DNA from: an uncultured Eubacteriales bacterium
GTDB taxonomy: Bacteria; Bacillota; Clostridia; Oscillospirales; Oscillospiraceae
DNA length: 64,000 bases
NCBI GenBank assembly: GCA_900544295.1
Contig: UQUO01000009.1
Coordinates: 15,596 to 79,595, forward strand
Reading direction: 5' to 3'
Shown here: positions 50,017 to 63,818 of the stretch, one piece after another
Layout: every line of letters starts with the position of its first letter
Position numbering within the stretch: position 1 is the first letter of the stretch
The notes under the pieces: generated by a model
Told to the model about the DNA's origin: nothing
Seen by the model: the letters and a program-made list of their open reading frames with translations, nothing else
Databases searched by the model: none
Program-made: the position numbers and the translations under genes

Positions 50017-50041
50017 TTTGTTCACATTTATGTGGTATCAT
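50013..50041 (+). promoter_or_regulatory. Promoter of the GH25 lipoprotein gene
   Basis: TTGATT - 17 bases - TATCAT, 35 bases before the start codon at 50077. The -35 box overlaps the stop codon of the EamA gene. Confidence 0.65.
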
Positions 50042-50076
50042 GTGTCGAATCCCGTCGGATACGAAAGGACGAGACA

Positions 50077-51000
50077 ATGAAAAGACTTACCGCGATACTG
50101 CTGCTCATATCCCTGGCCCTGGGCCTTGCCGCCTGCGGCGGCGAGCCGGAGCCCACGCCCGACCCGCATGAGGGCATGATATACGTGAACACCGGCGCAG
50201 GAGAGGAGTGGGTGGACGAGGCCGAGGGCGTGCCCGTCTCCCAGCTGTCCGAGTCGGATTTTGAGACAGGCGGGGACGGCATCCCCGTCTACACCGGCGA
50301 CGTCTACGAGACGCGCCTCGGCATCGACGTCTCCTTCTACCAGGGCGACATCGACTGGCAGGCCGTCGCGGACGCGGGCATAGAGTTTGCCATGATACGC
50401 TGCGGCTACCGCGGCTCCTCCGAGGGCGAGCTCTTCGTGGACGAGAAGTTCGAGCAGAACATGCAGGGCGCCATAGACGCCGGGCTCGACGTGGGCGTCT
50501 ACTTCTTCTCCCAGTCCATGGGCGCCATAGAGGCCGCCGAGGAGGCCCTCTTCGTCCTCGACCTTATCAAGGACTACGACATCTCCATGCCCGTCGCCTT
50601 CGACTGGGAGCCGCTTGAGGACTCCCGCGCCGAGGACATAAACGACGAGGAGCTCACCGCCTCCGCCCTTGTCTTCTGCGAGATGATAAAGGACGCGGGC
50701 TACACCCCCTGCGTCTACTTCTACCGCTACATCGCCTACCACGATTACGACCTGAGCCGTCTGGCAGACTTCCTCTTCTGGATCGGCGCCCCCGGCTCTG
50801 CCCCGGATTTCTACTACGAGGCCGCGATCTGGCAGTTTTCCTTTACGAGCCGCATAGACGGCATAGACGCCGACGTGGACATGAACCTCCAGTTCTACGC
50901 CCCGGGTGCCGACCCCTCCTTCCCCGGCCCCGAGCCCAGCCCTGTGGAGACGGAAGAGCCCGCCGAGAGCCCGGAGCCCGCTGAAGAAACGGACGGCTGA
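50077..51000 (+). CDS. Surface lipoprotein with GH25 (Lyc-type muramidase-like) domain
   Basis: A 307-residue lipoprotein. The signal peptide ends GLAAC (Cys20), then an acidic linker. The GH25 barrel starts at about residue 82 with LGIDVSFYQGDIDWQAVADA, where Asp is the conserved first catalytic-site residue. GIEFAMIRCGYRG follows, and the DxE pair is in MPVAFDWEPLEDS. YEAAIWQFSFTSRIDGIDAD with VDMNLQ closes the domain. GH25 enzymes cut peptidoglycan between MurNAc and GlcNAc. The tail is Pro/Glu-rich. ATG after AAAGGACGAGACA. Role: remodelling of its own wall or attack on neighbours; not decidable. Confidence 0.88.
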   Translation: MKRLTAILLLISLALGLAACGGEPEPTPDPHEGMIYVNTGAGEEWVDEAEGVPVSQLSESDFETGGDGIPVYTGDVYETRLGIDVSFYQGDIDWQAVADAGIEFAMIRCGYRGSSEGELFVDEKFEQNMQGAIDAGLDVGVYFFSQSMGAIEAAEEALFVLDLIKDYDISMPVAFDWEPLEDSRAEDINDEELTASALVFCEMIKDAGYTPCVYFYRYIAYHDYDLSRLADFLFWIGAPGSAPDFYYEAAIWQFSFTSRIDGIDADVDMNLQFYAPGADPSFPGPEPSPVETEEPAESPEPAEETDG

Positions 51001-51026
51001 TTTTTCCCGGGAGCGTAAAGTTTTCC

Positions 51027-51055
51027 TTGACAGCCGCCCCGCGCGCGTGTATAAT
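51027..51055 (+). promoter_or_regulatory. Consensus promoter of the SAM-riboswitch operon
   Basis: TTGACA - 17 bases - TATAAT, a perfect match to the housekeeping consensus, ending 21 bases before the riboswitch aptamer. Confidence 0.9.
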
Positions 51056-51075
51056 ATTTGCTGACAACTGAAAAG

Positions 51076-51169
51076 CCTTATCAAGAGTGGCGGAGGGACC
51101 GGCCCTGTGAAGCCCGGCAACCTGCTTATGCAAGGTGCCAAATCCGGCGGTGTAAATCGGAAGATGAGG
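51076..51169 (+). promoter_or_regulatory. SAM-I riboswitch (S-box)
   Basis: The S-box core is clear. The P1 strands CCTTATC (51076-51082) and GATGAGG (51163-51169) pair, and CAAGAGTGGCGGAGGGA is the conserved P1/P2 junction. GCCCGGCAACC and AAGGTGCCAAATCC follow, the parts that build the SAM pocket and the P2 kink-turn/pseudoknot. A terminator follows, so SAM is expected to switch transcription off before the nucleotidyltransferase gene and metK. Confidence 0.93.
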
Positions 51170-51186
51170 ATGAACGCTCAGAATTC

Positions 51187-51215
51187 AAGCCCGCCGGGAA
51201 TCGGCGGGCTTTTTT
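51187..51215 (+). terminator. Riboswitch-controlled terminator
   Basis: AAGCCCGCCG - GGAAT - CGGCGGGCTT hairpin with a T-run, between the SAM-I aptamer and the first gene. Confidence 0.88.
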
Positions 51216-51230
51216 GTCGGGAGGTGCGAT

Positions 51231-51836
51231 ATGCTGAACATTGAAAGCTGGCTGCCGCTCTGGAGCCGCGCCGTGCTGGAGCGCTTCGGGGGGCGTGTGC
51301 TCTTCCTGGGCCTGCAGGGCAGCCGCGCCCGCGGCGAAGCGCGGGAAGACAGCGATATAGACACCGTCCTCGTCCTGGACCGGCTTGAAGCCTCCGACCT
51401 CGCCGCCCTGCGGGAGGCCCTCGCCCCCCTGCCGGAGCGGGGAAAGCTCTGCGGCTTCGTCTCCGGGCGGGCGGAGCTGCTGGCCTGGGAGCCGGGGGAG
51501 CTGTTTCAGTTTTACCACGACACGCGCCCCGTCCTGGGCAGCCTCGATTTCCTGCTGCCGCTCCTGAACCGCGAGGCCGCGCTCAGCAGCGTCCGCACCG
51601 GGGCCGGGGCCGTCTATCACGGCTGCGCCCACTATCTGCTCCACGGCGGAGCGCCTGAGGAGCTGGAGGCGCTGCAAAAGGCCGCCTTCTTCACCCTGCG
51701 CGCCCTGTGTTGGCTTGATACCGGCATTTTTCCCGCCTCCCGCGCCGCCCTGCCCGAAGCCGGCCGCGCCCTGCTCGCCGCCGGGCCGGAGGAGCTCTTC
51801 GCCTGGGCCGGTGAGACGCTCAAAAACGTATTCTAA
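51231..51836 (+). CDS. Nucleotidyltransferase-domain protein under SAM-riboswitch control
   Basis: A 201-residue protein. The polymerase-beta-type signature [20 protein letters not shown] (residues ~28-47) carries the GS loop and the two metal-binding Asp of DxD. The third carboxylate may be the Asp/Glu in [17 protein letters not shown], less certain. The C-terminal half is helical ([17 protein letters not shown]), as in minimal nucleotidyltransferases with an attached HEPN-like helix bundle. It sits between the SAM-I terminator and metK, 22 bases before metK, with GGGAGGTGCGAT before its ATG. Its substrate is unknown; it could modify a small molecule, an RNA or a protein linked with methionine metabolism. 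Confidence 0.75.
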
Positions 51837-51858
51837 TTTCAAAAAGGAGATATTCGCA

Positions 51859-53046
51859 ATGGCAAACTACCTGTTCACCTCCGAATCCGTCACCGAGGGC
51901 CATCCCGACAAAGTCTGCGACCAGATATCCGACGCGGTGCTGGACGCCATACTCGAAAAAGACCCCATGGGCCACGTCGCCTGCGAGTGCACCGCCACGA
52001 CCGGCATCATCTACATCATGGGTGAAATTTCCACCAGCTGCTACGTGGACATCCCGAAAATCGCGCGCGAGGTCGTCTGCGACATCGGCTATGACGACGC
52101 CTCCTGCGGCTTCAACGGCCACACCTGCGCCGTGCTCACCGCCATCGACGAGCAGTCCGGCGACATCGCCATGGGCGTCGATAAGTCCCTCGAGCTCAAG
52201 GAGGGCCAGGCGGGCGACAGCCTGGAGAACGGCGCCGGCGACCAGGGCATGATGTTCGGCTACGCCTGCGACGAGACGCCGGAGCTCATGCCCCTGCCCA
52301 TCTCCCTGGCGCAGAAGATGGCCCGCCGCCTCGCTGAGGTGCGCAAGAGCGGCCTGCTCAGCTATCTGCGCCCGGACGGCAAGACCCAGGTCACCATCGA
52401 GTACGACGGCGAGGGCCGCCCCCTGCGCGTGGACACCGTCGTCGTCTCCACCCAGCACGACGAGGCCGTCTCCCTGGAGCAGATCCGCGCCGACATGATA
52501 GAGCACGTCATCCTGCCCACCATCCCCGCCGAGCTGAACCGTGGGGACATCAAATATTATGTCAACCCGACCGGCCGCTTTGTGAAGGGCGGCCCCGCAG
52601 CTGACTCGGGCCTCACGGGCCGCAAGATAATCGTGGACACCTACGGCGGCAGCGCTCCCCACGGCGGCGGCTGCTTCTCGGGCAAGGACCCGACGAAGGT
52701 GGACCGCAGCGCGACCTACGCGGCCCGCTGGGTGGCGAAGAACATCGTGGCCGCGGGCCTGGCGCACCGCTGCCAGGTGCAGCTGGCCTATGCCATCGGC
52801 GTGGCGACGCCGGTGAGCGTGAACGTCACGACCTTCGGCACCGGGGCCGTGCCGGACCACGTGCTGGAGAAGGCCGTGGGCGAGGTCTTTGACCTGCGTC
52901 CCTCCGCTATCATCCGCGACCTCGGCCTGCGCAGGCCCATTTACCGCAAACTCGCCGCCTACGGCCACATGGGCCGCGAGGATCTGGGCGTAGCCTGGGA
53001 GAAGACTGACCGGGCCGCCGCCCTGCGCGCCGCCTGCGGGAAGTGA
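51859..53046 (+). CDS. metK: S-adenosylmethionine synthetase MetK
   Basis: A 395-residue enzyme making SAM from methionine and ATP. Signatures are [20 protein letters not shown] (ATP- and methionine-binding His/Asp), [33 protein letters not shown] with [20 protein letters not shown], and [20 protein letters not shown]. Complete, normal length. The ATG at 51859 follows AAAAAGGAGATATTCGCA; the open frame begins 48 codons earlier inside the nucleotidyltransferase gene but without a start site. Expression is governed by the SAM-I riboswitch upstream, giving feedback by its own product. Confidence 0.97.
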
Positions 53047-53178: not shown

Positions 53179-53325
53179 GTGTACGAACTCGACAAGAGAA
53201 AATTCGGCTCCTTCGTATCCAGCCTCCGAAAGGAAAAGGGCTGGACGCAGAAGGAGCTGGCGCAGAGGCTTTTTGTCTCCGACAAGGCGGTGAGCAAGTG
53301 GGAAACGGGCGTTTCACGCAGTTAA
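53179..53325 (+). pseudogene. XRE-family regulator, 5' fragment interrupted by the mobile element
   Basis: A GTG start at 53179 preceded by GAGGTGA gives 48 codons. The first 42 are the N-terminal helix-turn-helix of an XRE regulator: ELDKRKFGSFVSSLRKEKGW, TQKELAQRLFVSDKAVSKWE. After GAAAC (53302-53306) the frame runs into element DNA (GVSRS) and stops at 53325. The missing continuation, TGASIPDTALLIPLAEQLGV, is found at 63198 onward, so the reading frame was cut after the codon for Glu42. The fragment could still make a 48-residue truncated HTH peptide. Confidence 0.9.
53302..53319. other. Left attachment junction (attL) of the integrative element
   Basis: GAAACGGGCGTTTCACGC marks the left boundary. 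GAAAC is shared with the right junction (63195-63199). Host gene sequence lies to the left and element sequence, GGGCGTTTCAC, to the right. Confidence 0.8.
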
Positions 53326-53534
53326 AGACACGCAGCCCGCGCTTATGCAAACAAGAATATTAAGTCTCCTCATAACATACATTGGAGCTTAATTCTATGT
53401 TAACTGTTCATCGTTCGTTTTATATGCGAATCGGGAATCTGTGGGCGGCAATAAAGAGCCGTCCACAATCATTCTGTTCGTCATTTTCCTGAATCTTACT
53501 CTTGCCTTAGTTGGTGTATTATTATGCATCCAGC

Positions 53535-53563
53535 TTGACAAATGTGGATTATCCAAATATTAT
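53535..53563 (+). promoter_or_regulatory. Promoter of the pucR-type gene
   Basis: TTGACA - 17 bases - TATTAT, 35 bases before the start codon. The 272-base AT-rich stretch 53326-53597 between the element's left end and this gene holds no other feature that I can support. Confidence 0.8.
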
Positions 53564-53597
53564 ATTATCAAAGTCTTCCTGTAATGGAGGTGTATCT

Positions 53598-55193
53598 ATG
53601 GGAGTAACAGTGGAGGACTGCCTACGGCTCCCGGCGCTCAGGCAGGCGAAGCTGGCGGCGGGGGCAGGCGGGCTGAACAGGTCGGTCGCTTCCATAACAG
53701 TCCTAGAATATCCGCGCATAGATATGCTCTCCGACGCTCTTCTTGTAGGCAATGAGCTGGTCATTTCCGCGCTTGTGAGCATCAAGGACGACGTGGAGAT
53801 GCAGTGCCGTCTGCTGCAGCACCTGAGCGAAATGGGTGAGGCCGGTCTCATCCTGTATTACACCGGCGTTTTCGTCCAGGAAATTGACGACCGGCTCATT
53901 TCCACCGCCGACGGCCTCGATTTCCCGCTTATCCTCATGCCCCGAGGGCGCATGGACTTCCGCTACAGCGAGAGCATCACCGAGGTCATGGAGCTCGTCT
54001 TTGCCGACCAGAAGCGCGAGCGCTATTACACCGGCGAGATGGCCAAGCGCATTTCGCGCCTCTCGCCGCAGCTGCGCACGATGAACAGCGTGCTCAGGCT
54101 ACTGAGTGACCGCCTGCGCTGCACGCTGCTGCTCGCCGACCGCTCCTTTGCGCGCAAGGCCGCCGCGGCGTGGCCGCTCTCGAACGAGTGGGGCTACCGG
54201 CTGATTCTGGACACCCTGCGCGAGAACAAGCCCGCGGCATATTCCCCGCTCGTGATGGACTGCGAGGGACGCGGCGTGCGCGTCTGGGACTTCCCCGTGA
54301 CTGGCAAACGCAGCCAGGGGCTGCACCTTCTGGCGCTGGACGAAGAGGGCTCGCAGGAGGAGGACATGCTGCGCCAGGCGGCGGAGGTCGTGGAGCTCTT
54401 CCTGAACGTCTGGAACCGGGACGTCAACCTAGAGGGCACGGACGCGCTGGTGCACGCCATACTCAGCGACCAGCCGGAGGAGATGCGCCGCCTGGCCGGG
54501 CGCATGGGCATAGATATTGAGACCATCAACACGCTTTACGTCCTGCGGCTGAGGGCAGCGGACAACCCCGCGCTCCAGGATGCGGCGGAGCGGCTGAAGC
54601 GGTATTTGCAGGAGCACCACAAGCTGGTCGTGACCGATGTGTACAATCACGGCGTGGTGGCATTCTGCGACGACAAGCTCTTTGACGAGGCCGAGACGGA
54701 CGTGGCGGGCGACTTCGTCGGGAAGATGAAGGCGCGCGGCGTGAAGTGCGACTGCGCGGTGCTGGAGAGGATAGCCAACACCACCCAGGCCCGCGCGGGA
54801 TACATGTCCGTCGAGGAAAACATGAGCTATGCAGCGCGGCTCTGGCCGCATAAGCCGGTCTTTACCAGCGGCGAGCTGCAGTTCGCCGGGGAGTGCCGCG
54901 AGCTGCTGTCCAGGGGTGAGGACGCATACAGGCGTCCGCTGGGCTGCCTGGACGGTGTGCCGGGGCTCGCGGACGGGGAGAACCTTCTGAATATCCTCTG
55001 CACATATCTGCTGGACGCCGGCTCCAGTACGCAGCGCACAGGTGAGCTGCTTCACCTGCACCGCAACACTGTCAAGTATCATATAGGAAAGCTGCGCACT
55101 CTGCTGGCCGTGGATCTGGACACGATGCCGGAGGCCATGCAGGTGTACACCGCGGCCGCACTCTGGCGGCTGATGCACAGCGAGGACAAGTGA
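53598..55193 (+). CDS. PucR-family transcriptional regulator
   Basis: A 531-residue regulator. The N-terminal PucR domain (MGVTVEDCLRLPALRQAKLA, GLNRSVASITVLEYPRIDML) spans about 125 residues. A central GGDEF-like/CdaR region follows. The C-terminal HTH_30 DNA-binding domain is LLDAGSSTQRTGELLHLHRN with TVKYHIGKLRTLLAVDL. PucR proteins activate purine, allantoin or other nitrogen-source genes in response to a metabolite. ATG after TAATGGAGGTGTATCT; the open frame extends upstream over the promoter but has no ribosome site there. It stands upstream of the DUF917-permease-pepD genes, separated by a terminator, and is their probable activator. Confidence 0.9.
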   Translation: MGVTVEDCLRLPALRQAKLAAGAGGLNRSVASITVLEYPRIDMLSDALLVGNELVISALVSIKDDVEMQCRLLQHLSEMGEAGLILYYTGVFVQEIDDRLISTADGLDFPLILMPRGRMDFRYSESITEVMELVFADQKRERYYTGEMAKRISRLSPQLRTMNSVLRLLSDRLRCTLLLADRSFARKAAAAWPLSNEWGYRLILDTLRENKPAAYSPLVMDCEGRGVRVWDFPVTGKRSQGLHLLALDEEGSQEEDMLRQAAEVVELFLNVWNRDVNLEGTDALVHAILSDQPEEMRRLAGRMGIDIETINTLYVLRLRAADNPALQDAAERLKRYLQEHHKLVVTDVYNHGVVAFCDDKLFDEAETDVAGDFVGKMKARGVKCDCAVLERIANTTQARAGYMSVEENMSYAARLWPHKPVFTSGELQFAGECRELLSRGEDAYRRPLGCLDGVPGLADGENLLNILCTYLLDAGSSTQRTGELLHLHRNTVKYHIGKLRTLLAVDLDTMPEAMQVYTAAALWRLMHSEDK

Positions 55194-55208
55194 ACAGGTC
55201 ACCTTTGT

Positions 55209-55237
55209 CCCGGCGAACAACGTTCGTCGGGATTTTT
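55209..55237 (+). terminator. Terminator of the pucR-type gene
   Basis: CCCGGCGAAC - AAC - GTTCGTCGGG hairpin followed by ATTTTTTC. Confidence 0.85.
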
Positions 55238-55253
55238 TCGTTCCGCCGGCCGA

Positions 55254-55280
55254 TTAACGGCGGGCGCGCCTCCATGTATA
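55254..55280 (+). promoter_or_regulatory. Promoter of the DUF917-permease-pepD operon
   Basis: TTAACG followed, about 16-17 bases later, by TATAAT, roughly 63 bases before the DUF917 start codon. The weak -35 box suits an activator-dependent promoter. Confidence 0.55.
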
Positions 55281-55342
55281 ATTTAAACAGTTAAAGGTAA
55301 GTGCAAGCCCGATGTCCAAAAATTATACAGGAGGTAAGAAAC

Positions 55343-56449
55343 ATGTCAAGGATCCTCAACGAAGAACAGCTTATCGACGTCATATGGGGAGCTACCCTCA
55401 TGGGCGGAGGCGGCGGCGGAGCCATGGTGGGCGGCACCGACCTGCTCAACACCTATAAGAAGCTGCACCCGGAAAAGCCCGTCGAGCTCACGCTCATAGA
55501 GAGCGGCGAGATGGCGCCGGACGCCTACGCGGCAGTCACCGCCGGCATGGGCGCGCCGACCGTGCTCAAGAGCGTGGACTTCTCGCAGTACGCCGTCAAC
55601 GCCTTCAACACGCTCAAGGAGATGGCCGCGGAGATGGACCCGCCGCGCAAGCTGGAGTACTGCATCCCGGTCGAGCTGGGCGGCTTCAACACCTTCTGCC
55701 CCATGCTCATCTCCCTGCTCGAGGGCATCCCCTTCGTCGACTGCGACGGCGCCGGCCGCGCCGTGCCCGCCCTCGACACGCTGCTGCTGCACGTGAACGG
55801 TCTCGACACCTCGCCGCTTGCAATGGCCGACGGCAAGGACAACAAGGTCATGATAAAGCTCAAGGACCCCAAGGACGCGCCCATGGGAGAGGAGATAGGC
55901 CGCTGGATCTGCACCGCCTTCGGGCAGATTGCGGGCCTCTCCGGCTGGATGGTCACGAAGTCCGAGATTGAGGGCAGCCTGCCCTGCGGCACGGTCTCGC
56001 TCTGCGAAAAGATAGGCCGCGAGCTGCGCAAGTGCGCCGCCGAGGGCGGCGACGTCTTCGGCAACCTCGCCGCGGCGGGAGTGGACTGCAAGTTCCTCGC
56101 CAAGGGCAAGGTCGCCAAGTGCGAGAACCTCCAGCAGAAGGGCTTCGACTACGGCAAGGTATATGTGAGCGCGGACGACGGCGAGTGGATAATCTACTTC
56201 CAGAACGAGAACCTGCTCATCACCCACGACGGCAAGCCCGTCATGACCGTGCCGGACATCACCTGCTACTACGACGCCGCCACAGGTATGCCCCTCACCA
56301 ACGCGGACATCTACGAGGGCATGGAGATAGTGCTCGGCGCCATCAAGGCTCCCGACGCCTGGTGGAAGAACCCGAACATGTTCGAGATTTGGAAGCCCTT
56401 CCTCGAGAACGTCGGCTATGAGGGCGGCAACATCCCCTTCAGCAAATAA
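55343..56449 (+). CDS. DUF917-family protein (S-methyl-thiohydantoin desulfurase-like)
   Basis: A 368-residue cytoplasmic protein. The N-terminal glycine-rich motif DVIWGATLMGGGGGGAMVGG is the hallmark of DUF917, now named after S-methyl-thiohydantoin desulfurase (N- and C-terminal domains). VELGGFNTFCPMLISLLEGI, PFVDCDGAGRAVPALDT and TVPDITCYYDAATGMPLTNA are further conserved parts. Relatives often lie beside hydantoinase/oxoprolinase genes; here it lies beside an NCS1 permease, a family that includes hydantoin carriers. AGGAGGTAAGAAAC precedes the ATG. Enzymatic role is inferred from the family only. Confidence 0.82.
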   Translation: MSRILNEEQLIDVIWGATLMGGGGGGAMVGGTDLLNTYKKLHPEKPVELTLIESGEMAPDAYAAVTAGMGAPTVLKSVDFSQYAVNAFNTLKEMAAEMDPPRKLEYCIPVELGGFNTFCPMLISLLEGIPFVDCDGAGRAVPALDTLLLHVNGLDTSPLAMADGKDNKVMIKLKDPKDAPMGEEIGRWICTAFGQIAGLSGWMVTKSEIEGSLPCGTVSLCEKIGRELRKCAAEGGDVFGNLAAAGVDCKFLAKGKVAKCENLQQKGFDYGKVYVSADDGEWIIYFQNENLLITHDGKPVMTVPDITCYYDAATGMPLTNADIYEGMEIVLGAIKAPDAWWKNPNMFEIWKPFLENVGYEGGNIPFSK

Positions 56450-56544
56450 TCACACTCCTTGGACATGGCCGGGGCGCTCCCGGCCATGTCCGAATAAAGC
56501 GAAAGGAAGCGCATCAAGGGTAAGAAAAAAGAAAGGGAGATAGT

Positions 56545-57885
56545 ATGGAAGAGAACAGGAACGTTCAGACCGAAACCACAAGCGGCGACAAGGGTATGTC
56601 CCAGATCCTGCCGCACGAGAAGCGCAGCTGGTGGAGCGTCGCCTTCATCTGGATTGGCACGATGATATGCATCCCGATGCTTATGGTCGGCGGCATGTTC
56701 GGCGGCGCGCTGACGCTCGGCAACACCTTTATAGTCACGGTCATAGGCTTCGCCATCTGCTGCTTCCTGATGGTCATGGGCGGCATCATAGGCTCCGATC
56801 TGGGCCTGAACGCGACGATGACCTCGACCCGCGCCTTCGGCATGACGGGCGCGAACTTTTCAATGGCGCTGGTGGTGTTCATTGCCGAGGCCGGCTGGTT
56901 TGCCGTGCAGACCGCCACCTGCGCCCTCGCGGCCAACACGCTCATGGAGCTCTTCGGAGTCACCGTGCCCTTCTGGCTCTCCTGCGTGATATGGGGCACG
57001 ATAATGTTCATAACCGCCGTCTACGGCGTCAAGTGGATGGCATGGCTCAACTACATAGCCGTGCCTCTGCTCGTCATACTCTGCGCCTACGGCGCGATAC
57101 ACACGATAAGCGGCGTCGGCTGGGGATATATCTCAAGCGCCGTCACCGAAAACGCCATGTCCATCCCCGCGTCCATCTCGACGGTCATCGGCCTCTTCGC
57201 CCTGGGCGCGACCTGCAACAGCGACTATACGCGCTACTGCCGCACAAGGGGCGACGTCGTCAAGGGTACGCTGCTCGGCGTCCTGCCTGCGGCGGTGCTT
57301 ATGATAATGGTCGGCGCAATCATGGCCATAGGCACCGGCAACTACGACGTCACAAGCATGTTCGCCGGCCTCGGCCTGCCCTTCGTCGCCATGCTGGTGC
57401 TGATTCTCGCCACCTGGACGACGAACACCGGCAACGCCTATATGTCCGGCCTCGCGGCCTGCAAGATGTTCTCCGTTAAGGACAAATACCGCCCTCAGGT
57501 GACCATGGCCGTCGGCGTCCTGGGCGTGATACTCGCCATCATGGGCCTCGCCGACGCGCTCAACACCTATATCACCATCCTCGGCGCGGTCGTGCCGCCC
57601 ATCATGGGCATAGTCATCTGTGACTACTGGGTGTTCTGCAAGGGAAAGAAGGAGAACTGGGCCCCTCGCCGCGGCGTGAACTGGGCCGGCATAATCGCCT
57701 GGGTGCTCGGCGGCGGCATAGCCATACTCGAGACCATACCCGTGATTACCATCTTCAGCCCCGCGCTGGACGGCGTCATAATCTCCTTCGTCTCCTACCT
57801 CATATTCTACAAGCTGCTTGAGAAGACCTCCCTCGTCGGTCAGGGCGACATGACGATAGAGGAGGCCACCGCGGCGGCCAGGTAA
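56545..57885 (+). CDS. NCS1-family permease (cytosine/hydantoin/allantoin type, CodB-like)
   Basis: A 446-residue, 12-segment sodium- or proton-coupled carrier of nucleobases and related ring compounds. NCS1 landmarks are RSWWSVAFIWIGTMICIPML, GMTGANFSMALVVFIAEAGW (TM3 substrate site), VIGLFALGATCNSDYTRYCR and LATWTTNTGNAYMSGLAACK. VVPPIMGIVICDYWVFCKGK is near the end. It is closer to the CodB group than to purine permeases by its overall layout. GGGAGATAGT precedes the ATG. It lies between the DUF917 and pepD genes; pepD follows after 12 bases. Substrate unknown. Confidence 0.88.
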   Translation: MEENRNVQTETTSGDKGMSQILPHEKRSWWSVAFIWIGTMICIPMLMVGGMFGGALTLGNTFIVTVIGFAICCFLMVMGGIIGSDLGLNATMTSTRAFGMTGANFSMALVVFIAEAGWFAVQTATCALAANTLMELFGVTVPFWLSCVIWGTIMFITAVYGVKWMAWLNYIAVPLLVILCAYGAIHTISGVGWGYISSAVTENAMSIPASISTVIGLFALGATCNSDYTRYCRTRGDVVKGTLLGVLPAAVLMIMVGAIMAIGTGNYDVTSMFAGLGLPFVAMLVLILATWTTNTGNAYMSGLAACKMFSVKDKYRPQVTMAVGVLGVILAIMGLADALNTYITILGAVVPPIMGIVICDYWVFCKGKKENWAPRRGVNWAGIIAWVLGGGIAILETIPVITIFSPALDGVIISFVSYLIFYKLLEKTSLVGQGDMTIEEATAAAR

Positions 57886-57897
57886 GGAGGTCAGCAT

Positions 57898-59349
57898 ATG
57901 TCTGAAATGAAGCTCTGCGAGGCAGTGCTGGGCGAATTCCTGCCCATGACGGAGATCCCGCGCCCCTCCCACCACGAGGAGAGGATAAGCAAATACCTGC
58001 TCGATTGGGCCGTCAGCCGCGGGCTGCACGCCGAGCGCGACGAGCTGGGCGAGGTCATAATCGACAAGCCCGCCTCGCCCGGCTGCGAAAACGTGCCGAG
58101 GCTCATAATGCAGGCGCACATGGACATGGTCTGCGTCGCCGCCGAGGGCGTCAAATTCGACCCGCTGACGGACGGCGTCAAGGCGGTCCGCGAGGGCGAT
58201 ACGCTCCGCGCCGAGGGCACCAGCCTGGGTGCGGACAACGGCATCGGCGTCGCCATGGCGCTGTGCATGCTCAAGGACCCCAATCTGAAGCACGGCCCGC
58301 TGCGCGCCGTCTTCACGGTGAACGAGGAGGACGGCATGGCCAGCATCGGCCTCGCGCCGGAGTACCTCGAGGGCGACTATCTGATAAACCTCGACTGGGA
58401 GACGCTCGGCTCGCTCTGCAACTCCTGCGCCGGAGGAGACTACTTCAACTTCTACCGTGACTGCGGCTGGGAGAGCACGCCGAAGCGCTCCGTGGCCATA
58501 GAGCTGAGCCTGTCCGGCTTCCTCGGCGGGCACTCGGGCGTGGGCATCCATCTCGGGCACGCGAACGCCCTGGTCAGCGCGGCGACGGCGCTGGAGTATC
58601 TGAGGCAAAACGGTGTGGAATTCCGCGTTGCATCGTTTTCGGGCGGACAGGCCAAAAACGCCATACCGGCCTCGGCCAACGCTGTTATCACCCTCACAGT
58701 TGCGGAGGCCCAAAAAGCGATGGATCAGCTTGAAGCATTCAAAGCGGAGTTCTATGGCGGCTATCGCGATGTGGAGCCATCCGGTGTGTTCACGTTTTCG
58801 CTCGGGAGCGCGCCGGAGCGGGTGATGGGCGAGGCAGCCGGGTACTCGCTCGTCGGACTGATGTCCAGCGTACCCAACGACGTGTTTACGATGAGCCCGT
58901 TTATTCCCGGCCTCGTGGAGAGCAGCGCCAATCTTGGCGTCATATCGCTTGACGGACGTGTGAGCTTCACTGTATTTGCGCGCAGCTCAAGCGCCTACCG
59001 GGCCATGCAGACGGGCATAATCTGCCGCTCGCTTGCCAGCGCATATGGGTTCGAGCTTGATAGTGACGGCCATGTGCCGGGCTGGGCTGTTAACCCCAAC
59101 AGCGTACTGACGAAAATAGCCTGTGAACAATACAAGCGGCTGACCGGCGAGGACATGGTTGTCGAACCGGTACACGCGGGCGTTGAGTGCGGGGCATTTG
59201 CGGAGAAGAACCCCAAGCTCGATATGATAGCTATCGGTCCCACACTTATGGACGTTCATACGCCGAACGAAACATGCAACCTCCCAAGTGTCGAAATAAC
59301 AATGGAGCTACTCAGGAACATTATTCAGGCCATAGCCGACAGGGAATAA
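57898..59349 (+). CDS. pepD: Aminoacyl-histidine dipeptidase PepD (M20C)
   Basis: A 483-residue cytoplasmic metallodipeptidase that hydrolyses Xaa-His dipeptides such as carnosine and others. Metal ligands are visible in LIMQAHMDMVCVA (His, Asp), GADNGIGVAMAL (bridging Asp), FTVNEEDGMASIG (Glu pair) and LINLDWETLGS (Asp). AHAGVECGAF-like VHAGVECGAFAEKNPKLDMI holds the last His/Glu region. ATG after AAGGAGGTCAGCAT. Codon use and GC content fall from about base 58680 to the end, unlike the first half, which suggests a mosaic origin. It is the last gene of the cargo operon. Confidence 0.92.
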   Translation: MSEMKLCEAVLGEFLPMTEIPRPSHHEERISKYLLDWAVSRGLHAERDELGEVIIDKPASPGCENVPRLIMQAHMDMVCVAAEGVKFDPLTDGVKAVREGDTLRAEGTSLGADNGIGVAMALCMLKDPNLKHGPLRAVFTVNEEDGMASIGLAPEYLEGDYLINLDWETLGSLCNSCAGGDYFNFYRDCGWESTPKRSVAIELSLSGFLGGHSGVGIHLGHANALVSAATALEYLRQNGVEFRVASFSGGQAKNAIPASANAVITLTVAEAQKAMDQLEAFKAEFYGGYRDVEPSGVFTFSLGSAPERVMGEAAGYSLVGLMSSVPNDVFTMSPFIPGLVESSANLGVISLDGRVSFTVFARSSSAYRAMQTGIICRSLASAYGFELDSDGHVPGWAVNPNSVLTKIACEQYKRLTGEDMVVEPVHAGVECGAFAEKNPKLDMIAIGPTLMDVHTPNETCNLPSVEITMELLRNIIQAIADRE

Positions 59350-59396
59350 AAGATCTCCCAACTCCTCCAAACCTGCCGGTTACTTAATTATCCCAC

Positions 59397-59432
59397 CACA
59401 AAGCACCGTTATCACTGCGGTGCTTTGTGTGT
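59397..59432 (+). terminator. Terminator of the cargo operon
   Basis: CACAAAGCACCG / CGGTGCTTTGTG 12-bp stem with a loop of about eight bases, 48 bases after the pepD stop. A second stem, GCTGCCCGGCAC-TCGA-GTGCTGGGCGGC (59500-59527), lies further on. The 220-base gap 59350-59569 holds no gene that I can support. Confidence 0.75.
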
Positions 59433-59569
59433 ATGTAAATGTTCTTCTTCATCGTAAACCATGTGGTATGGCCCACCCGGAGCTTCAGCGACGCAAAGAG
59501 CTGCCCGGCACTCGAGTGCTGGGCGGCTTTCGCACATACATGACCATGTATAGAAGTGCGCCCTTCGGA

Positions 59570-60128
59570 TTATTCAAACGTTAGCAGCACGGTCTTCGGC
59601 AGCTTTTCACCCGCGTGCGCTTTCAAGTAGCGGGCGGCTTTATTTGCAAAGCGGTGGGTTTTGGTCGTGTCCAGCTCCGCGAGGGCGGTTATTTGTGCCG
59701 GTTGCTGCGTCGAACCGAAACTCGCCCCAGTCGCCGTCGTTGTCGGCCTGGTAGCGGTAGGTGCCGGGAGCGATGCGCTCGATGCGGACGACGTGCAGCT
59801 CGCCGAGCTCGACCAGATTCAGTGTCAGCCTTTCCACTGCGCGGCGGTAGGCGCGCTCGGCGGTTCGCGGGCTGGACGACTCGAACTCAATCGCCAGGTC
59901 CTCAAAGCTCGCGCGCTCGCTGAGCGGCGCGACACGTCCGCAGGTCATGCAGATTGCGTTGCGCTTTTCCAGCAGCGTCTGCTCGCGGTAGCTCAGCTTT
60001 GCAAACGCCTCGCGCACCTTTTCGGCACGTATGCCGTCCCACAGCACGTCAACGTAATCCCAGCTATAGCTTGCCTCAACGTCATTTTCCAGCGGCGACG
60101 CGCTCAGCATGACCTGGGCAATCTTCAA
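59570..60128 (-). CDS. Sigma-70 region-4-like ORF, probably frameshifted near its 3' end
   Basis: The uninterrupted ORF is 59640-60128, 162 residues. VREAFAKLSYREQTLLEKRN, then AICMTCGRVAPLSERASFED and LAIEFESSSPRTAERAYRRA, resemble sigma region 4 with a small CxxC insert. The ORF ends in a low-quality tail (TNNRPRGAGHDQNPPLCK). In another minus-strand frame the DNA encodes a clean tail (ITALAELDTTKTHRFANKAA, RYLKAHAGEKLPKTVLLTFE) to a stop at 59570-59572. So the original protein probably ended there and was shifted around 59690-59710. The TTG start overlaps the upstream stop as TTGA. Confidence 0.6.
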
Positions 60129-60562
60129 AAACCTTCTCGCGGTTGCTTTAGAGCAGCCGCGCTTTTTATGAACTCCTCAACCGCCTCGCGCTGTTCAGCT
60201 CCGTACATGAGCGCGCCCATGCGCCGCGCGGCCTTGTACTCGTCGAGGTTTGAGAACGAGCCAGCCTCTTCCAGCATCCTTGCCCTAAGCAGCGCATTCA
60301 TAACGTCGTGGTGTGCAAAAGTCGAAAATTGAATACCTTTGCCCGCGTCGAAGTCCTTCCATCGCTCGAGCATCGCGGCGGCGCAGGAGAGCTTGTAGTC
60401 CATGAACGTCTCCGGGTCGAATGCACGCTTCCCGAGGAATCTGTGCACAATCTCGTTGAGTTTCGGCTCATAGCCATAGAGGAAACCCTCAAAGGTTTCG
60501 TCTCCATTCACCGACGGCGCGCCACTGCGGAAGGCGTTTTCTGCCTGTTTAAGCGTCAGCAT
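60125..60562 (-). CDS. Sigma-70 region-2-like ORF of the mobile element
   Basis: A 145-residue hydrophilic protein. YEPKLNEIVHRFLGKRAFDP with ETFMDYKLSCAAAMLERWKD and FDAGKGIQFSTFAHHDVMNA, LLRARM, resembles sigma region 2 (core-binding helices and the FDxxKGxxFsTYA-like block). It has no region 4; that lies in the next ORF, whose TTG overlaps this stop. Together the two look like one sigma factor split into two polypeptides. Its ATG lies inside the end of the DUF6076-like gene (14-base overlap). The pair may transcribe genes of the element. Confidence 0.65.
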   Translation of the reverse strand: MLTLKQAENAFRSGAPSVNGDETFEGFLYGYEPKLNEIVHRFLGKRAFDPETFMDYKLSCAAAMLERWKDFDAGKGIQFSTFAHHDVMNALLRARMLEEAGSFSNLDEYKAARRMGALMYGAEQREAVEEFIKSAAALKQPREGF

Positions 60563-61541
60563 TTTTCTCTGCCTCAGCCAATAACGCGCCCTGTGTCATC
60601 TCGGCCTCATATCTCCCGCGCGCGTAATTCGCGTCGGACAGCGCACGCTGCAGCTTGTCTTTCGCCAGCTTGCGCATTGCGTCAGCCGTAGCTTCGTCTA
60701 GTTTGCCACGCCTCTGGCTCTGCAAAATGGTGTTCAGGCGGCGGTTGTAGATTGCTTTCAGCGGATGGTCGGCGGCAAGCTCGCGCTGCCCTCGCCCGCG
60801 CATTGCGCCCACCTGACGGCACGTCCTGCCGCCGGGCGCAAAGCCGCCGCAATACTTTGTGTGCCGCGCGTCGAGCGTGAGGAACCAGCGCCCACAGACG
60901 GCGCACCGGCGCGGCGCGTGGCCTGCGGCAAGACCCTCAAAGAGGTCGGAGCGCAGCAGCCCGACAAACGACACATAGCTCATGCGCCGCACAAGTCTCG
61001 GCGGCTCTCCTACAGCAACATACTGAACCGTCGCATTGGCGAGGGACATCAGGCTGTCGTCAGATGCGTCGAAGTGCGCACCAAATGTGGCGGCGAGGCC
61101 GTCGGGCGTGCGTTCAACGCCGTCGTCATTTATGCTATCAGCCAGCGCCGCCATTGTGCGCTTGTATTCAGCGAGCGAGTACGCGAGCTGTGCGAGCACC
61201 GGAGCTATTTTGCTCAGCAGCGCTCCCTTGCGGAGGCCCGGCTCCTGTGCCGCAGCGAGTCCGTGCGTGAGCATCGCCATATTTAACGCGCGGACTTGTG
61301 TCAGCGCGTCGGGCGAAAAGGCGTCAGCGATGCTAGGAGTGTAGAAGTCGTAGTCCAGTTGCGAAAAAGGCTCCATGTGACTCATCGCATCAAGGATTTT
61401 CGCTGCCGCGCCTCGCGCTCTGTTCATCAACTCATCGGGAACGCTCATCATGGCGAGCGCGGAGATGAACTCGTTGAGTGCCTTGCACGGCTCAATAAGC
61501 GATGTAATGGCCTCATCAGTTAAGCGCGGGCTGTTTCGCAC
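60549..61541 (-). CDS. DUF6076-like zinc-binding protein of the mobile element
   Basis: About 330 residues, first gene of the minus-strand module. The only recognisable part is a C-terminal cysteine/histidine cluster, HAPRRCAVCGRWFLTLDARH with TKYCGGFAPGGRTCRQVGAM, resembling DUF6076 proteins found beside serine recombinases in Clostridia. The start is uncertain. The open frame reaches 61592, overlapping the divergent recombinase gene by 38 bases. I place the start at the GTG 61541 because conserved-looking sequence (RLTDEAITSLIEPCKALNEF) begins soon after. Function unknown. Confidence 0.65.
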   Translation of the reverse strand: MRNSPRLTDEAITSLIEPCKALNEFISALAMMSVPDELMNRARGAAAKILDAMSHMEPFSQLDYDFYTPSIADAFSPDALTQVRALNMAMLTHGLAAAQEPGLRKGALLSKIAPVLAQLAYSLAEYKRTMAALADSINDDGVERTPDGLAATFGAHFDASDDSLMSLANATVQYVAVGEPPRLVRRMSYVSFVGLLRSDLFEGLAAGHAPRRCAVCGRWFLTLDARHTKYCGGFAPGGRTCRQVGAMRGRGQRELAADHPLKAIYNRRLNTILQSQRRGKLDEATADAMRKLAKDKLQRALSDANYARGRYEAEMTQGALLAEAEKNADA

Positions 61542-61554
61542 AAAGGAGGTTAAT

Positions 61555-63168
61555 TTGAAACAGCTAAAAACATACAACACTGCACTGTACATGCGCCTGA
61601 GCCGCGACGATGAGAGTTACGGCGACAGCGTAAGCATCGAGACTCAGCGTACCATTCTTCGTAAATACGCCGCTGAAAACGGACTACGCGTCGTTGATGA
61701 GTACGTTGACGACGGCTGGAGCGGAACAAACTTCGAGCGTCCCTCGTTCAAACGCATGATGGCCGATGTGGACACTGGCAAGGTCAACTGCATCGTAACG
61801 AAAGACCTCAGCCGCTTTGGCAGGGAACACGTCATGATGGACTACTACCTTGAATTCGTGTTCCCGGAGAAGCAGATACGCTACATAGCCGTCACAGAAA
61901 ACGAGGACACCGAGCGCGGATTGAGCGACTTTGTACCGTTCAAAAACCTGTTCAACGAGTGGTTTGCCAAGGACACAAGCCGCAAGGTCAAGGCCGCGCT
62001 GCACTCCAAGTTTGCCAATGGTGAGCGCATCTTTGCCTACGCTCCGCTCGGTTACAAGCGCGACCCGGATAAGAAAAATGCCCTCGTCATTGACGAGGAA
62101 ACTAAGTGGATAGTGGAGAAGATTTTCATTCTAGCCGTTCACGGCGCGGGCGCAGCGCATATTACGCATATGCTCATAAAAGAACGTGTCCCGACTCCCG
62201 GCTGGCTAAATTACACCCGCTATGGTACTTTCGCCAATATCTACGCTGACGCGCCCGAGGAAAAGCGGTATGCCTGGACTATTGCGCAAGTGAAATCCAT
62301 CCTCAAAGACGAGACCTACATTGGCAACACGGTTCACAACAAGCAGACGAACATTTCGTACAAGAGCAAGAAGCGCATACGCAAACCGGAAGAGGACTGG
62401 GTTCGCGTCGAAAACACGCATGAGGCAATCATAGATAGGGACGTATTTTACCAGGTGCAACAGCAGATTGCCAACCGCCGCCGAAAAATGAAGGACGGCA
62501 CCAGGCAAATATTCGCCGGACTCGTCAAATGCGCGGACTGCGGCTGGTCAATGGCATATTCCTTGAAAGCTCAAAGCAAGACGCCATACGGCCTTTACCG
62601 TTGCAGTAAATATGGGCAAGGCACGGGTCAATGCACAGCGCACCACATCCGCTACGACGTACTCTACACCTACGTCCTCGCCCGCGTCCGCCACTGGGCA
62701 AAGCAGGCCGAGATTGACGAGGGTGCGCTGCTCCAGAAACTTCTCAAAACCGGTGATAAAGAGCGTTTGGCGGCGTCTAAGAAGCAAGCCGGCGAACTCG
62801 CAAAGGCCGAAAAGCGCAAAGCCGAGGTTGATAGGCTCTTTACCAGGATGTACGAGGACTGGGCCGCAGGGCGCATCACGGAGTACAACTTCAATATGCT
62901 CTCGCAGAAGTACCAAAGTGAGCAGCAGGAGCTTGAAACAAAGATTGAGGCGCTGAAAGCACAGCTCACCGCGCAGGAGCAGTCCACAGCGGACATCGAG
63001 AAGTGGGTCAAGCTAATACGTCAGTATACCAATCCGACCGAGCTGACCGCTGAACTGCTCAACACGCTGATTGAGAAAATCCTGATACACGAGGCCGTAA
63101 AGCAACCCGACGGCACACGGGAGCAGGAAGTAGAAATCTTCTACCGCTTCGTCGGCAAAATTGATTGA
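61555..63168 (+). CDS. Large serine recombinase (integrase/TnpX-like)
   Basis: A 537-residue site-specific recombinase. The catalytic domain has nucleophile Ser16 in ALYMRLSRDDESYGDSVSIE, then DDGWSGTNFERPSFKRMMAD and CIVTKDLSRFGREHVMM. The recombinase domain has ERIFAYAPLGYKRDPDKKNA and YAWTIAQVKSILKDETYIGN. A zinc ribbon is FAGLVKCADCGWSMAYSLKA / YRCSKYG...GQC, and a coiled coil (residues ~400-490) precedes a DUF4368-like end. TTG start after AAAGGAGGTTAAT. The gene ends 26 bp before the right junction, as is usual for enzymes that integrate and excise the element. No inactivating change is visible. Confidence 0.93.
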   Translation: MKQLKTYNTALYMRLSRDDESYGDSVSIETQRTILRKYAAENGLRVVDEYVDDGWSGTNFERPSFKRMMADVDTGKVNCIVTKDLSRFGREHVMMDYYLEFVFPEKQIRYIAVTENEDTERGLSDFVPFKNLFNEWFAKDTSRKVKAALHSKFANGERIFAYAPLGYKRDPDKKNALVIDEETKWIVEKIFILAVHGAGAAHITHMLIKERVPTPGWLNYTRYGTFANIYADAPEEKRYAWTIAQVKSILKDETYIGNTVHNKQTNISYKSKKRIRKPEEDWVRVENTHEAIIDRDVFYQVQQQIANRRRKMKDGTRQIFAGLVKCADCGWSMAYSLKAQSKTPYGLYRCSKYGQGTGQCTAHHIRYDVLYTYVLARVRHWAKQAEIDEGALLQKLLKTGDKERLAASKKQAGELAKAEKRKAEVDRLFTRMYEDWAAGRITEYNFNMLSQKYQSEQQELETKIEALKAQLTAQEQSTADIEKWVKLIRQYTNPTELTAELLNTLIEKILIHEAVKQPDGTREQEVEIFYRFVGKID

Positions 63169-63190
63169 ATACAAACCAGTATCTTTAAGT

Positions 63191-63208
63191 GTGTGAAACC
63201 GGCGCGAG
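63191..63208. other. Right attachment junction (attR) of the integrative element
   Basis: GTGTGAAACCGGCGCGAG. Element sequence (GTGT) lies left of the shared GAAAC (63195-63199) and host XRE sequence (CGGCGCGAG) to the right. Confidence 0.8.
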
Positions 63209-63818
63209 CATACCGGATACGGCGCTGCTCATCCCCCTTGCGGAGCAGCTGGGCGTCAGCGTGACGGAGCTGCTGCGCTGCGAGCGGCTGGGCAGCGGTA
63301 TTGACGCCGGGCAGGTGGAGGAGCTGGTCAAGGCCGCGATCAGCTACGGCGCGCAGAAGCCGGAGCGCGCCTGGCACAGCGGCGGGCGCTGGCCGGGCCT
63401 GTATGTGCTCTGCCTCCTGCTGGGCGGGGCCTGCCTCGTTTGGGGGCTGCTCTCTGAGCATATCGGCACGTTTTCACCGGTACTCTATCTGCTGAGCTGC
63501 ATTTTCGGCGCATATTTCGTGTTCTTTGCGCCGCTGCGGCTGCCGGACTACTATGACCAAAACCGGATAAGCTCCTTCAGTGACGGGCCCATTCGCCTGA
63601 ACCTGGCGGGCCTGGCCATAAACAACTCCAACTGGCCGTACATGGTCCGCGCCGCCAGGGCCTGGACCTGCGCTGCGATGGCCCTGCCGCCCCTGCTGGA
63701 GCAGCTTCTGTCGCGTCTGTCCCCGTCTCTCTGGCAGTCCGCGGAGCCTGTTTTCTTCGCCGTCACAGTATTGAGCCTGTTTGTCGCGATGTACGTCTCC
63801 GGTAAGCGACACGGTTGA
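63195..63818 (+). pseudogene. XRE-family regulator, 3' fragment
   Basis: About 207 residues without their own start signals. ETGASIPDTALLIPLAEQLG continues the helix-turn-helix of the fragment at 53179, followed by VSVTELLRCERL. The C-terminal part has about four hydrophobic segments (GLYVLCLLLGGACLVWGLLS; FSPVLYLLSCIFGAYFVFFA; TCAAMALPPLLEQL; FFAVTVLSLFVAMYVSG), the common layout of membrane-linked XRE regulators in Clostridia. Rejoined, the protein would be ~250 residues. Loss of its N-terminus by the insertion should abolish DNA binding unless the element excises. Confidence 0.9.

Follow-up and report, generated by a model that had tools for sequence, protein, structure and literature searches.

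What has interrupted a regulator gene in the genome of an uncultured Oscillospiraceae bacterium, and why at one particular codon? The locus lies in a 64,000-nucleotide stretch of contig UQUO01000009.1 (hereafter the window; assembly GCA_900544295.1, positions 15,596 to 79,595), where an XRE-type regulator gene is split by a 9,893-bp element that runs from a core GG at 53308-53309 to a core GG at 63201-63202 and carries a gene for a large serine recombinase at its right end. The preliminary description of the window, which saw an integrative element with a metabolic operon inserted in an XRE gene, was right but incomplete: the insertion site is a gene-family signature that is used repeatedly.

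The split gene and the borders of the element

The left fragment of the XRE gene starts with GTG at 53179 and reads VYELDKRKFGSFVSSLRKEKGWTQKELAQRLFVSDKAVSKWETG (...SDKAVSKWETG across the core), followed by VSRS and a TAA stop; the right fragment, (C)ETGASIPDTALLIPLAEQLGVSVTELL..., is its continuation ETGASIPDTALL... and stays open to 63818. Joined in frame, both halves give a 248-residue protein that Pfam recognizes as XRE (PF01381 HTH_3, E 1.5e-13, residues 15-67), with the domain spanning the junction. The in-frame joint and this single domain bear out the proposal that the two fragments are one XRE-type protein, and the common core GG, the split gene, and the intact relatives of the gene discussed below agree with an insertion that has precise ends. 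The borders first given for it, 53302-63199, were correct to within a few bases of the exact cores. The left arm of the element is the inverted repeat of its right arm at 18 of 22 positions. Read from the sequence, these features support an integrative element with precise ends that lies in an XRE regulator gene and has a metabolic operon as cargo. Its two borders show the following features.

53179..53325, + strand: XRE gene 5' half, 44 codons, then VSRS and TAA from the element arm; HTH_3 partial match, E 7.9e-09
53278..53331, + strand: attachment site attL, host half ending GTGAGCAAGTGGGAAACG, core GG 53308-53309, then the element arm
63179..63218, + strand: attachment site attR, element arm GTATCTTTAAGTGTGTGAAACC, core GG 63201-63202, then the host half
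63201..63818, + strand: XRE gene 3' half, from the last part of the helix-turn-helix (HTH) domain through a C-terminal region that has hydrophobic stretches; reading frame intact

Related recombinases at the same codons of many XRE genes

Relatives of the window's recombinase were collected from 33 genomes, from 300 genomes of the family of Pseudoflavonifractor phocaeensis An507 (18 of which hold a window-type recombinase at E <= 1e-150), from viral contigs, and from plasmid and phage records, the seven best of which (at least 58.6% identity) were taken with one place each. This gave 29 resolvable integrated cases, namely the window and 28 recombinases that are 59-90% identical to the window's, some of them compared over part of their length only. 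In 26 of the 29, the second half of an XRE gene adjoins the recombinase, and mostly these are different genes (the window, L029, L065, L066, L074, L114, L121-L130, L132-L136, L230, and L233-L236). In these cases the W-E-x-G codons are always where the gene is broken, and the Gly codon begins with the GG that the junctions have in common. Counting the near-duplicates L065 and L066 once gives 25 of 28; L074 and L123 share the same kind of XRE gene, and those of the window, L029, L129, and L235 are similar. The right halves comprise 24 distinct host 20-mers among 25, with L127, which has a one-base frame shift at its right junction and an XRE left half, left out.

Four recombinases that are 100% identical (L114, L125, L126, and L127; 518-531 residues aligned) lie in four different XRE genes, so that one recombinase cluster is found in several target genes, the pattern that marks multi-targeting among DUF4368 recombinases. 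The window's own 90% cluster is represented in two different XRE genes only (the window and L121). In the Pusillibacter faecalis MM59 record, the annotation names a 'helix-turn-helix transcriptional regulator' on one side of the element and an 'XRE family transcriptional regulator' on the other.

The first XRE calls were made by eye. Because confirmation of the right halves by Pfam alone was weak, we then used a 24-column profile of our own, trained on XRE loci that match the joined protein, a set rich in relatives of the window's XRE gene that favors this kind of gene. Read in the frame that the GG dictates, 25 right halves of the 29 outscored all 12,428 null windows; L127 (frame off by one), L131, and L232 failed, and L231 was too short for scoring. 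A plain text pattern for the XRE half fired in 23 of the 29 cases, and the five genes that were joined across the gap, including the window's, all passed as HTH_3.

Among 29 more distant serine recombinases (31-48% identity), none had an XRE second half within 260 bp downstream. This control set comprised L070, L072, and L076-L103 without L087 (contig end); L071, the twin of L070, was not run, L035 was excluded as not being a recombinase end, and L076, L079, and L083 offered only 89-181 bp downstream. The text pattern fired in one control (L084), which was not XRE by eye. Matches dropped before the 29 cases were counted were L067 and L069 (uncut attP), L068 (contig end), L070 and L071 (at 48% identity, where no XRE sequence was seen), L072 and L073 (partial or under the 44% cut), and L120/L137 (broken recombinase without its 3' end). 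The search of the 33 genomes gave 53 matches, of which 51 were below 44% identity and were dropped; 28 of these (L076-L103) served as controls, and the other 23, without loci, stood outside the count.

Some of the integrated cases come from records of other kinds. L065 and L066 (IMG/VR) and L235 (MT835878.1, 'Bacteriophage sp.') are filed as viral and resemble element ends inside XRE genes; judged by their sequences, they are perhaps not viruses. L230 (NZ_AP023421.1), L233, L234, and L236 are large Pusillibacter and Subdoligranulum replicons of 116-504 kb listed as plasmids, and in two of the four the recombinase stands beside aadE.

Element ends and attachment sites

Left ends were identified for 11 elements through a cut XRE-like motif beside a TTAA-bearing arm; the XRE identity of these left halves is partly built in because the search required such a motif. 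TGGGAR is present in 10 of the 11 left halves, a four-codon tail with TAA in the XRE frame in all 11, and the host half is conserved past the core, as about GCGGTnAGCAAGTGGGAG (11 left halves, one offset by a base). On both strands together, the 64-kb window has a single copy of the extended motif AARTGGGARNNNGG, at attL by its sequence; the short motif TGGGARNNNGG is found there five times. Element sizes range from about 5.7 to 20.4 kb in the ten with both ends read, L041 being a left end only. The arms are inverted repeats in 10 elements, with 14-20 of 22 matches versus a shuffled mean of ~6. The left arm of L121, the closest sister element and from a different genome, is that of the window letter for letter over 33 bp.

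An uncut attP follows just after the recombinase in two viral contigs, L067 (160.7 kb) and L069 (152.6 kb). Both (IMG/VR; 160,718 and 152,621 bp) hold, by eye, ribonucleotide-reductase-like, dUTPase-like, and very long tail-like genes; near the latter lies an open reading frame (ORF) that looks like a reverse transcriptase, which suggests that these contigs carry a diversity-generating retroelement.

Unbroken XRE genes and empty sites

The joined XRE protein matched 64 loci in genome contigs. At 29 of them (L001-L028 and L031), nearly the whole protein is aligned, with 45-56% identity; at L030 the alignment covers residues 1-227. L029 (residues 41-247) is cut at the same codon as the window gene, with a recombinase C terminus directly upstream, and L041 (residues 1-46) is likewise an XRE gene cut at this codon. 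Of 24 relatives (metK served to choose 22 of them; the other two are G105 and G297), nine have a homologue of the window's XRE gene at 39-50% identity; eight of these are unbroken, and the ninth, in G105, is a cut copy.

Empty sites were found for two sister elements. The XRE gene cut at L132 (G008), whose two parts lie apart in that genome, is unbroken across the joint in seven of 20 genomes of the genus, namely G011 (86%) and G027, G018, G016, G330, G329, and G333 (75-81%). The flanks of L132 are collinear with G011 on both sides: one block is 92% identical over 6.6 kb, the other 86% over 1.9 kb, and at the site the two overlap by 8 bases. Similarly, the XRE gene of L129 (G105) is unbroken across the joint in five of 11 genomes (G337, G338, G312, G234, and G336; 72-79%). 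The preliminary description had called for intact genes, empty sites, and copies of the element elsewhere; related genomes supplied intact homologues, empty sites of sister elements, and insertions in other XRE genes, and what they did not supply was the window's own locus in its empty state.

The nearest relative found, G225, shares 82% DNA identity with the window over 3.0 kb across metK and its upstream neighbor. The syntenic part of the window (50032-53046; G225:C16, 82%) holds a lysozyme-like gene and a nucleotidyltransferase-like ORF, both by eye, and metK. Inheritance of the element within a conserved metK neighborhood was considered and rejected, as the synteny with G225 ends at metK.

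Proposed mechanism and alternative explanations

We consider it highly probable that the window holds a DUF4368 recombinase element that inserts its attP into an attB in XRE genes and carries interchangeable cargo. In detail, a large serine recombinase of the DUF4368-bearing, TnpX/TndX-like group would recombine attP, two inverted arms of ~22 bp around the core GG, with an attB inside XRE-type regulator genes, namely the stretch that codes for A-V-S-K-W-E-x-G of the HTH domain, with the crossover at a GG dinucleotide that opens the conserved Gly codon. Since Trp is encoded by a single codon, Glu by two, and Gly by GGN, W-E-x-G is nearly fixed in DNA (TGG GAR NNN GG), so that one recombinase could use many XRE paralogues in many genomes. 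Since its relatives insert at the same codons of many XRE genes, the integrase seems to recognize a gene family and not one gene. Insertion cuts the regulator within its HTH domain, with the arm giving an in-frame stop four codons on, and excision would be expected to restore the gene. The cargo between the ends is interchangeable; here it comprises a PucR-controlled operon, whose NCS1 permease would take up a small nitrogenous compound and whose DUF917 enzyme and PepD dipeptidase would convert it, and a DUF6076/sigma-like passenger module. The operon was probably taken from a related Clostridia chromosome.

Several results weigh against this scheme, all the evidence for which is in silico. 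Neither G225 nor any of the 24 relatives showed the window's own site empty; the locus could not be shown empty because G225 has no copy of the window's XRE gene in the 20 kb around metK, nor genome-wide at E <= 1e-25. Three of the 29 junctions lie outside XRE genes: L131 (G244); L231, on the Lactobacillus amylovorus plasmid NZ_CP104880.1, whose recombinase is 99.6% identical over 486 residues to XRE-inserted ones; and L232, on the Enterococcus faecium plasmid NZ_CP065930.1, inserted in a frame that is permease-like by eye. With these, the specificity is a strong preference and not absolute, and the two Lactobacillales plasmids perhaps represent pseudo-sites used in hosts outside Clostridia. 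When 19 XRE-type right halves were run apart in Pfam, HTH_3 appeared at E <= 1 in seven of the 19 and was missing from the other 12, and the best HTH_3 score of these halves, which are too short, was 6e-4, below the curated cut-off. For L123, L130, and L134, a search of ~76 kb upstream gave no left end, and an exact pattern for the circular form of a window-type attP had 0 matches in viral contigs.

The three exceptional junctions would fit an insertion of relaxed, TndX-like specificity, for which a short GGGAA..GG-like core suffices and XRE genes merely happen to carry it, with no family address; the DUF4368 clade is known as multi-targeting (PMC10083194). We regard this as unlikely, given that a single gene family accounts for 26 of the 29 sites, that these share one codon position, with the GG placed in the Gly codon every time, and that the host half is conserved beyond the core in 11 left halves. 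The five occurrences of TGGGARNNNGG in 64 kb, moreover, extrapolate to far more than a hundred in each genome, of which most would lie outside XRE genes. That the regulator is instead switched developmentally or conditionally by a skin-type intervening element, whose excision restores it, is more improbable still. The XRE halves are in frame without stops, and a serine recombinase could excise the element precisely, but the many XRE genes targeted and the varied cargo look like the spread of a mobile element and not a fixed switch; the circular junction was not found in viral contigs, and no directionality factor was recognized, though no search aimed at one.

A reduced, formerly mobilizable element that has lost its relaxase and persists as an inherited genomic island with a metabolic operon deserves serious weight, even if we lean somewhat against it. 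Relaxases are present in sister elements (Mob_Pre in L122, L125, and L132; MobA/MobL in L124 and L129) and absent among the ORFs of the window element; the sigma-like gene is broken into two frames; and the recombinase part has a GC content of 0.52-0.54, lower than the host-like 0.60-0.66 of the operon (0.63-0.68 in the left flank up to metK). On the other hand, the recombinase is open, as are both arms and both XRE halves, and L121, with its 90% identical recombinase, has no relaxase among the ORFs listed (small ORFs lie outside the scan), yet sits in a different XRE gene; the lineage of the window and L121 therefore seems to have moved without a relaxase of its own. The notion that there is no insertion, only unrelated fragments paired by chance or an assembly chimera, is hardly credible and was rejected: the halves make one HTH_3 domain, the arms are homologous around a common core, the left arm recurs over 33 bp in the genome of L121, and independent cases show other XRE genes cut alike.

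Beyond the mechanism itself, we offer tentatively, and with more doubt than belief, the idea that integrases of mobile elements and phages have, in one clade, evolved an address for a whole gene family, reading a codon-constrained signature of the XRE recognition helix, which makes the regulator family a switchable docking array. If true, almost every Clostridia genome would contain many dispensable landing sites, and insertion would silence a regulator, be it the host's or that of a rival mobile element, which excision could return. Site-specific integrases are usually described with single-gene or loose AT-rich targets, whereas this group would be directed to the motif of a protein family; homing endonucleases, which cut conserved codons, offer a parallel in principle. 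Such an address would explain how small gut elements with defense, resistance, metal-transport, and metabolic cargo find sites in many hosts. It would also provide a search handle by which these elements can be bounded with single-base precision in metagenomes, a testable rule of integrase specificity, and a natural recombinase with a degenerate but predictable attB motif.

Relation to known systems

IMEs (integrative and mobilizable elements) integrated in an HTH-XRE regulator gene have been described in Streptococcus suis (PMC7168690, 2019; PMC10995628). As far as the passages at hand describe them, they resemble the window element in having a serine integrase and lying inside an XRE regulator gene, and their aminoglycoside-resistance cargo recurs in the sister elements L125, L127, and L230; unlike them, the window element has neither a relaxase nor a resistance gene. 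They represent one integration specificity in one species, compared here by description and not by integrase sequence, and those passages mention no codon position, crossover, range of XRE paralogues, Oscillospiraceae, or phages. Multi-targeting DUF4368 large serine recombinases of the TndX-like clade (Durrant et al. 2022, PMC10083194) share with our cases the DUF4368 domain and the occurrence of near-identical recombinases in several different target genes. The sections of that paper available to us describe relaxed or AT-rich motifs, some more complex, and the words 'XRE' and 'helix-turn-helix' are absent from its main text to that extent.

IME_Rho_tet (PMC12904643, 2026), which targets MAFF2 and carries tet cargo, a relaxase, and MobC, is, in the excerpts seen, another element of gut Bacillota with one serine recombinase, terminal inverted repeats (21 bp there), and one recurrent target family, in that case MAFF2 with its many diverged copies. 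The window element differs in lacking a MAFF2 target, a tet gene, and a relaxase, and 'xre', 'HTH', and 'regulator' do not occur in the text of PMC12904643 that was searched. 'XRE' was likewise not found in the main texts of PMC5704250, PMC5357655, and PMC9092696, and targeting of the XRE family as a whole through conserved HTH codons was not found in the titles and abstract openings searched, with supplements and subscription papers outside this search. Insertion of IMEs into an HTH-XRE gene and multi-targeting by DUF4368 recombinases are already known; what appears new here is an address in the form of a protein-family motif.

Among solved structures, the best-scoring relatives of the window's recombinase are the catalytic domain of TnpX of Tn4451 (PDB 2mhc) and YokA of SPbeta (9dxh). 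Proteins annotated as TndX, the recombinase of Tn5397, are among the plasmid matches at only ~36% identity. To our knowledge, the known targets of Tn4451/TnpX and Tn5397/TndX are not XRE genes.

Genes carried by the window element

Between its ends, the element carries the following genes.

53598..55193, + strand: PucR-family regulator (PF07905, PF13556); start TTG 53511 in the ORF list, ATG 53598 after a GGAGG that resembles a ribosome-binding site by eye
55346..56449, + strand: DUF917 / S-methyl-thiohydantoin desulfurase-like protein (PF06032, PF20906); PDB relative 2o3i, E 4e-27
56545..57885, + strand: NCS1 permease (PF02133); nearest NCBIfam model a cytosine permease, below cut-off
57898..59349, + strand: M20 peptidase of the PepD / beta-Ala-His dipeptidase family (TIGR01893, above cut-off)
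59640..60128, - strand: sigma-like protein, C-terminal part; a single frame in the relatives translated
60125..60562, - strand: sigma-like protein, N-terminal part; weak Sigma70_r2, E 0.006, below cut-off
60549..61592, - strand: DUF6076 protein (PF19553, E 1.7e-48); start codon uncertain
61555..63168, + strand: large serine recombinase, 537 residues, with Resolvase, Recombinase, Zn_ribbon_recom, and DUF4368 domains

The element thus has its own integrase and precise att ends, as IMEs do, and its recombinase has the Resolvase, Recombinase, zinc-ribbon, and DUF4368 domains of the DUF4368 group. This is the one large serine recombinase among the ORFs scanned, in keeping with the preliminary description, which had also reported a lack of conjugation and phage genes; among the same ORFs we recognized no conjugation gene, relaxase, or phage structural or replication gene. 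The complete, regulated metabolic operon named there was also recovered as cargo, in the genes for PucR, the DUF917/S-methyl-thiohydantoin desulfurase-like protein, the NCS1 permease, and PepD. We take its function, from general knowledge of these families, to be most likely the uptake of a hydantoin-, thiohydantoin-, or nucleobase-like compound and of a linked dipeptide; the NCBIfam matches to thiohydantoin desulfurases are well below cut-off.

A counterpart of the operon, in the order PucR-NCS1-DUF917-PepD, is present in G238 (L204), and PucR-DUF917-PepD occur together in G248 (L202, a 5-kb contig); no match to the recombinase was found in the stretches read around either, which for G248 is the 5-kb contig only. 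Because the operon, or three of its genes, occurs there without such a recombinase, the cargo is not the unusual feature of the window. Relatives of the DUF917 protein (E <= 1e-70) are found in two of the 300 family genomes, but metagenomes contain a protein that is 99% identical (P0121, with 283 member sequences). Spread of the cargo by plasmids or viruses was rejected, as no DUF917 relative was found in plasmids or viral contigs.

DUF6076 occurs in 28 of the 300 genomes (E <= 1e-20), and a sigma-like gene adjoins it in eight of nine genomes inspected (L206-L213); in the ninth, G244, the contig begins there. A serine recombinase at 34-36% identity lies in the DUF6076 stretch in four of the nine (L205, L207, L208, and L211), and L122 likewise combines the DUF6076/sigma module with a serine recombinase, so the earlier remark that such passengers accompany serine recombinases holds for recombinases other than the window's too. 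A role of the DUF6076 and sigma-like proteins as a defense system was rejected in that PADLOC gave no match, and the word DUF6076 was not found in the literature searched. In the window, the sigma-like gene (59640-60562) consists of two overlapping frames with a break near a run of T, which may be a real frame break, slippage, or a sequencing error; in four translated relatives the frame is unbroken over at least 313-330 residues, and in L122 over 396.

Cargo of sister elements

Apart from the relaxases named above, the cargo of the sister elements varies. L121 carries an SLH surface protein, L124 other genes beside its relaxase, L125 an aminoglycoside nucleotidyltransferase, L126 an MFS transporter, L127 another nucleotidyltransferase, and L129 a P-type ATPase. 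The 5.7-kb element L132 (G008:C11, of Flavonifractor sp. AGMB03687), in which no resistance gene was seen, has a type II-like Cas1 together with a Cas2 (L132 5869-7073, + strand), in addition to its relaxase and a regulator of the XRE type. No cas9-sized ORF is in its ORF list, and a CRISPR array beside cas1-cas2 was rejected, as no direct repeats of at least 20 bases occur in L132:3500-9000; by its gene content, this would be an adaptation pair riding alone on a mobilizable element. The 20.4-kb element L122/L218 (G297:C9) adds a type I restriction-modification system to its DUF6076/sigma module, and the type I specificity part looks, by eye, to be interrupted by an IS110-like transposase gene.

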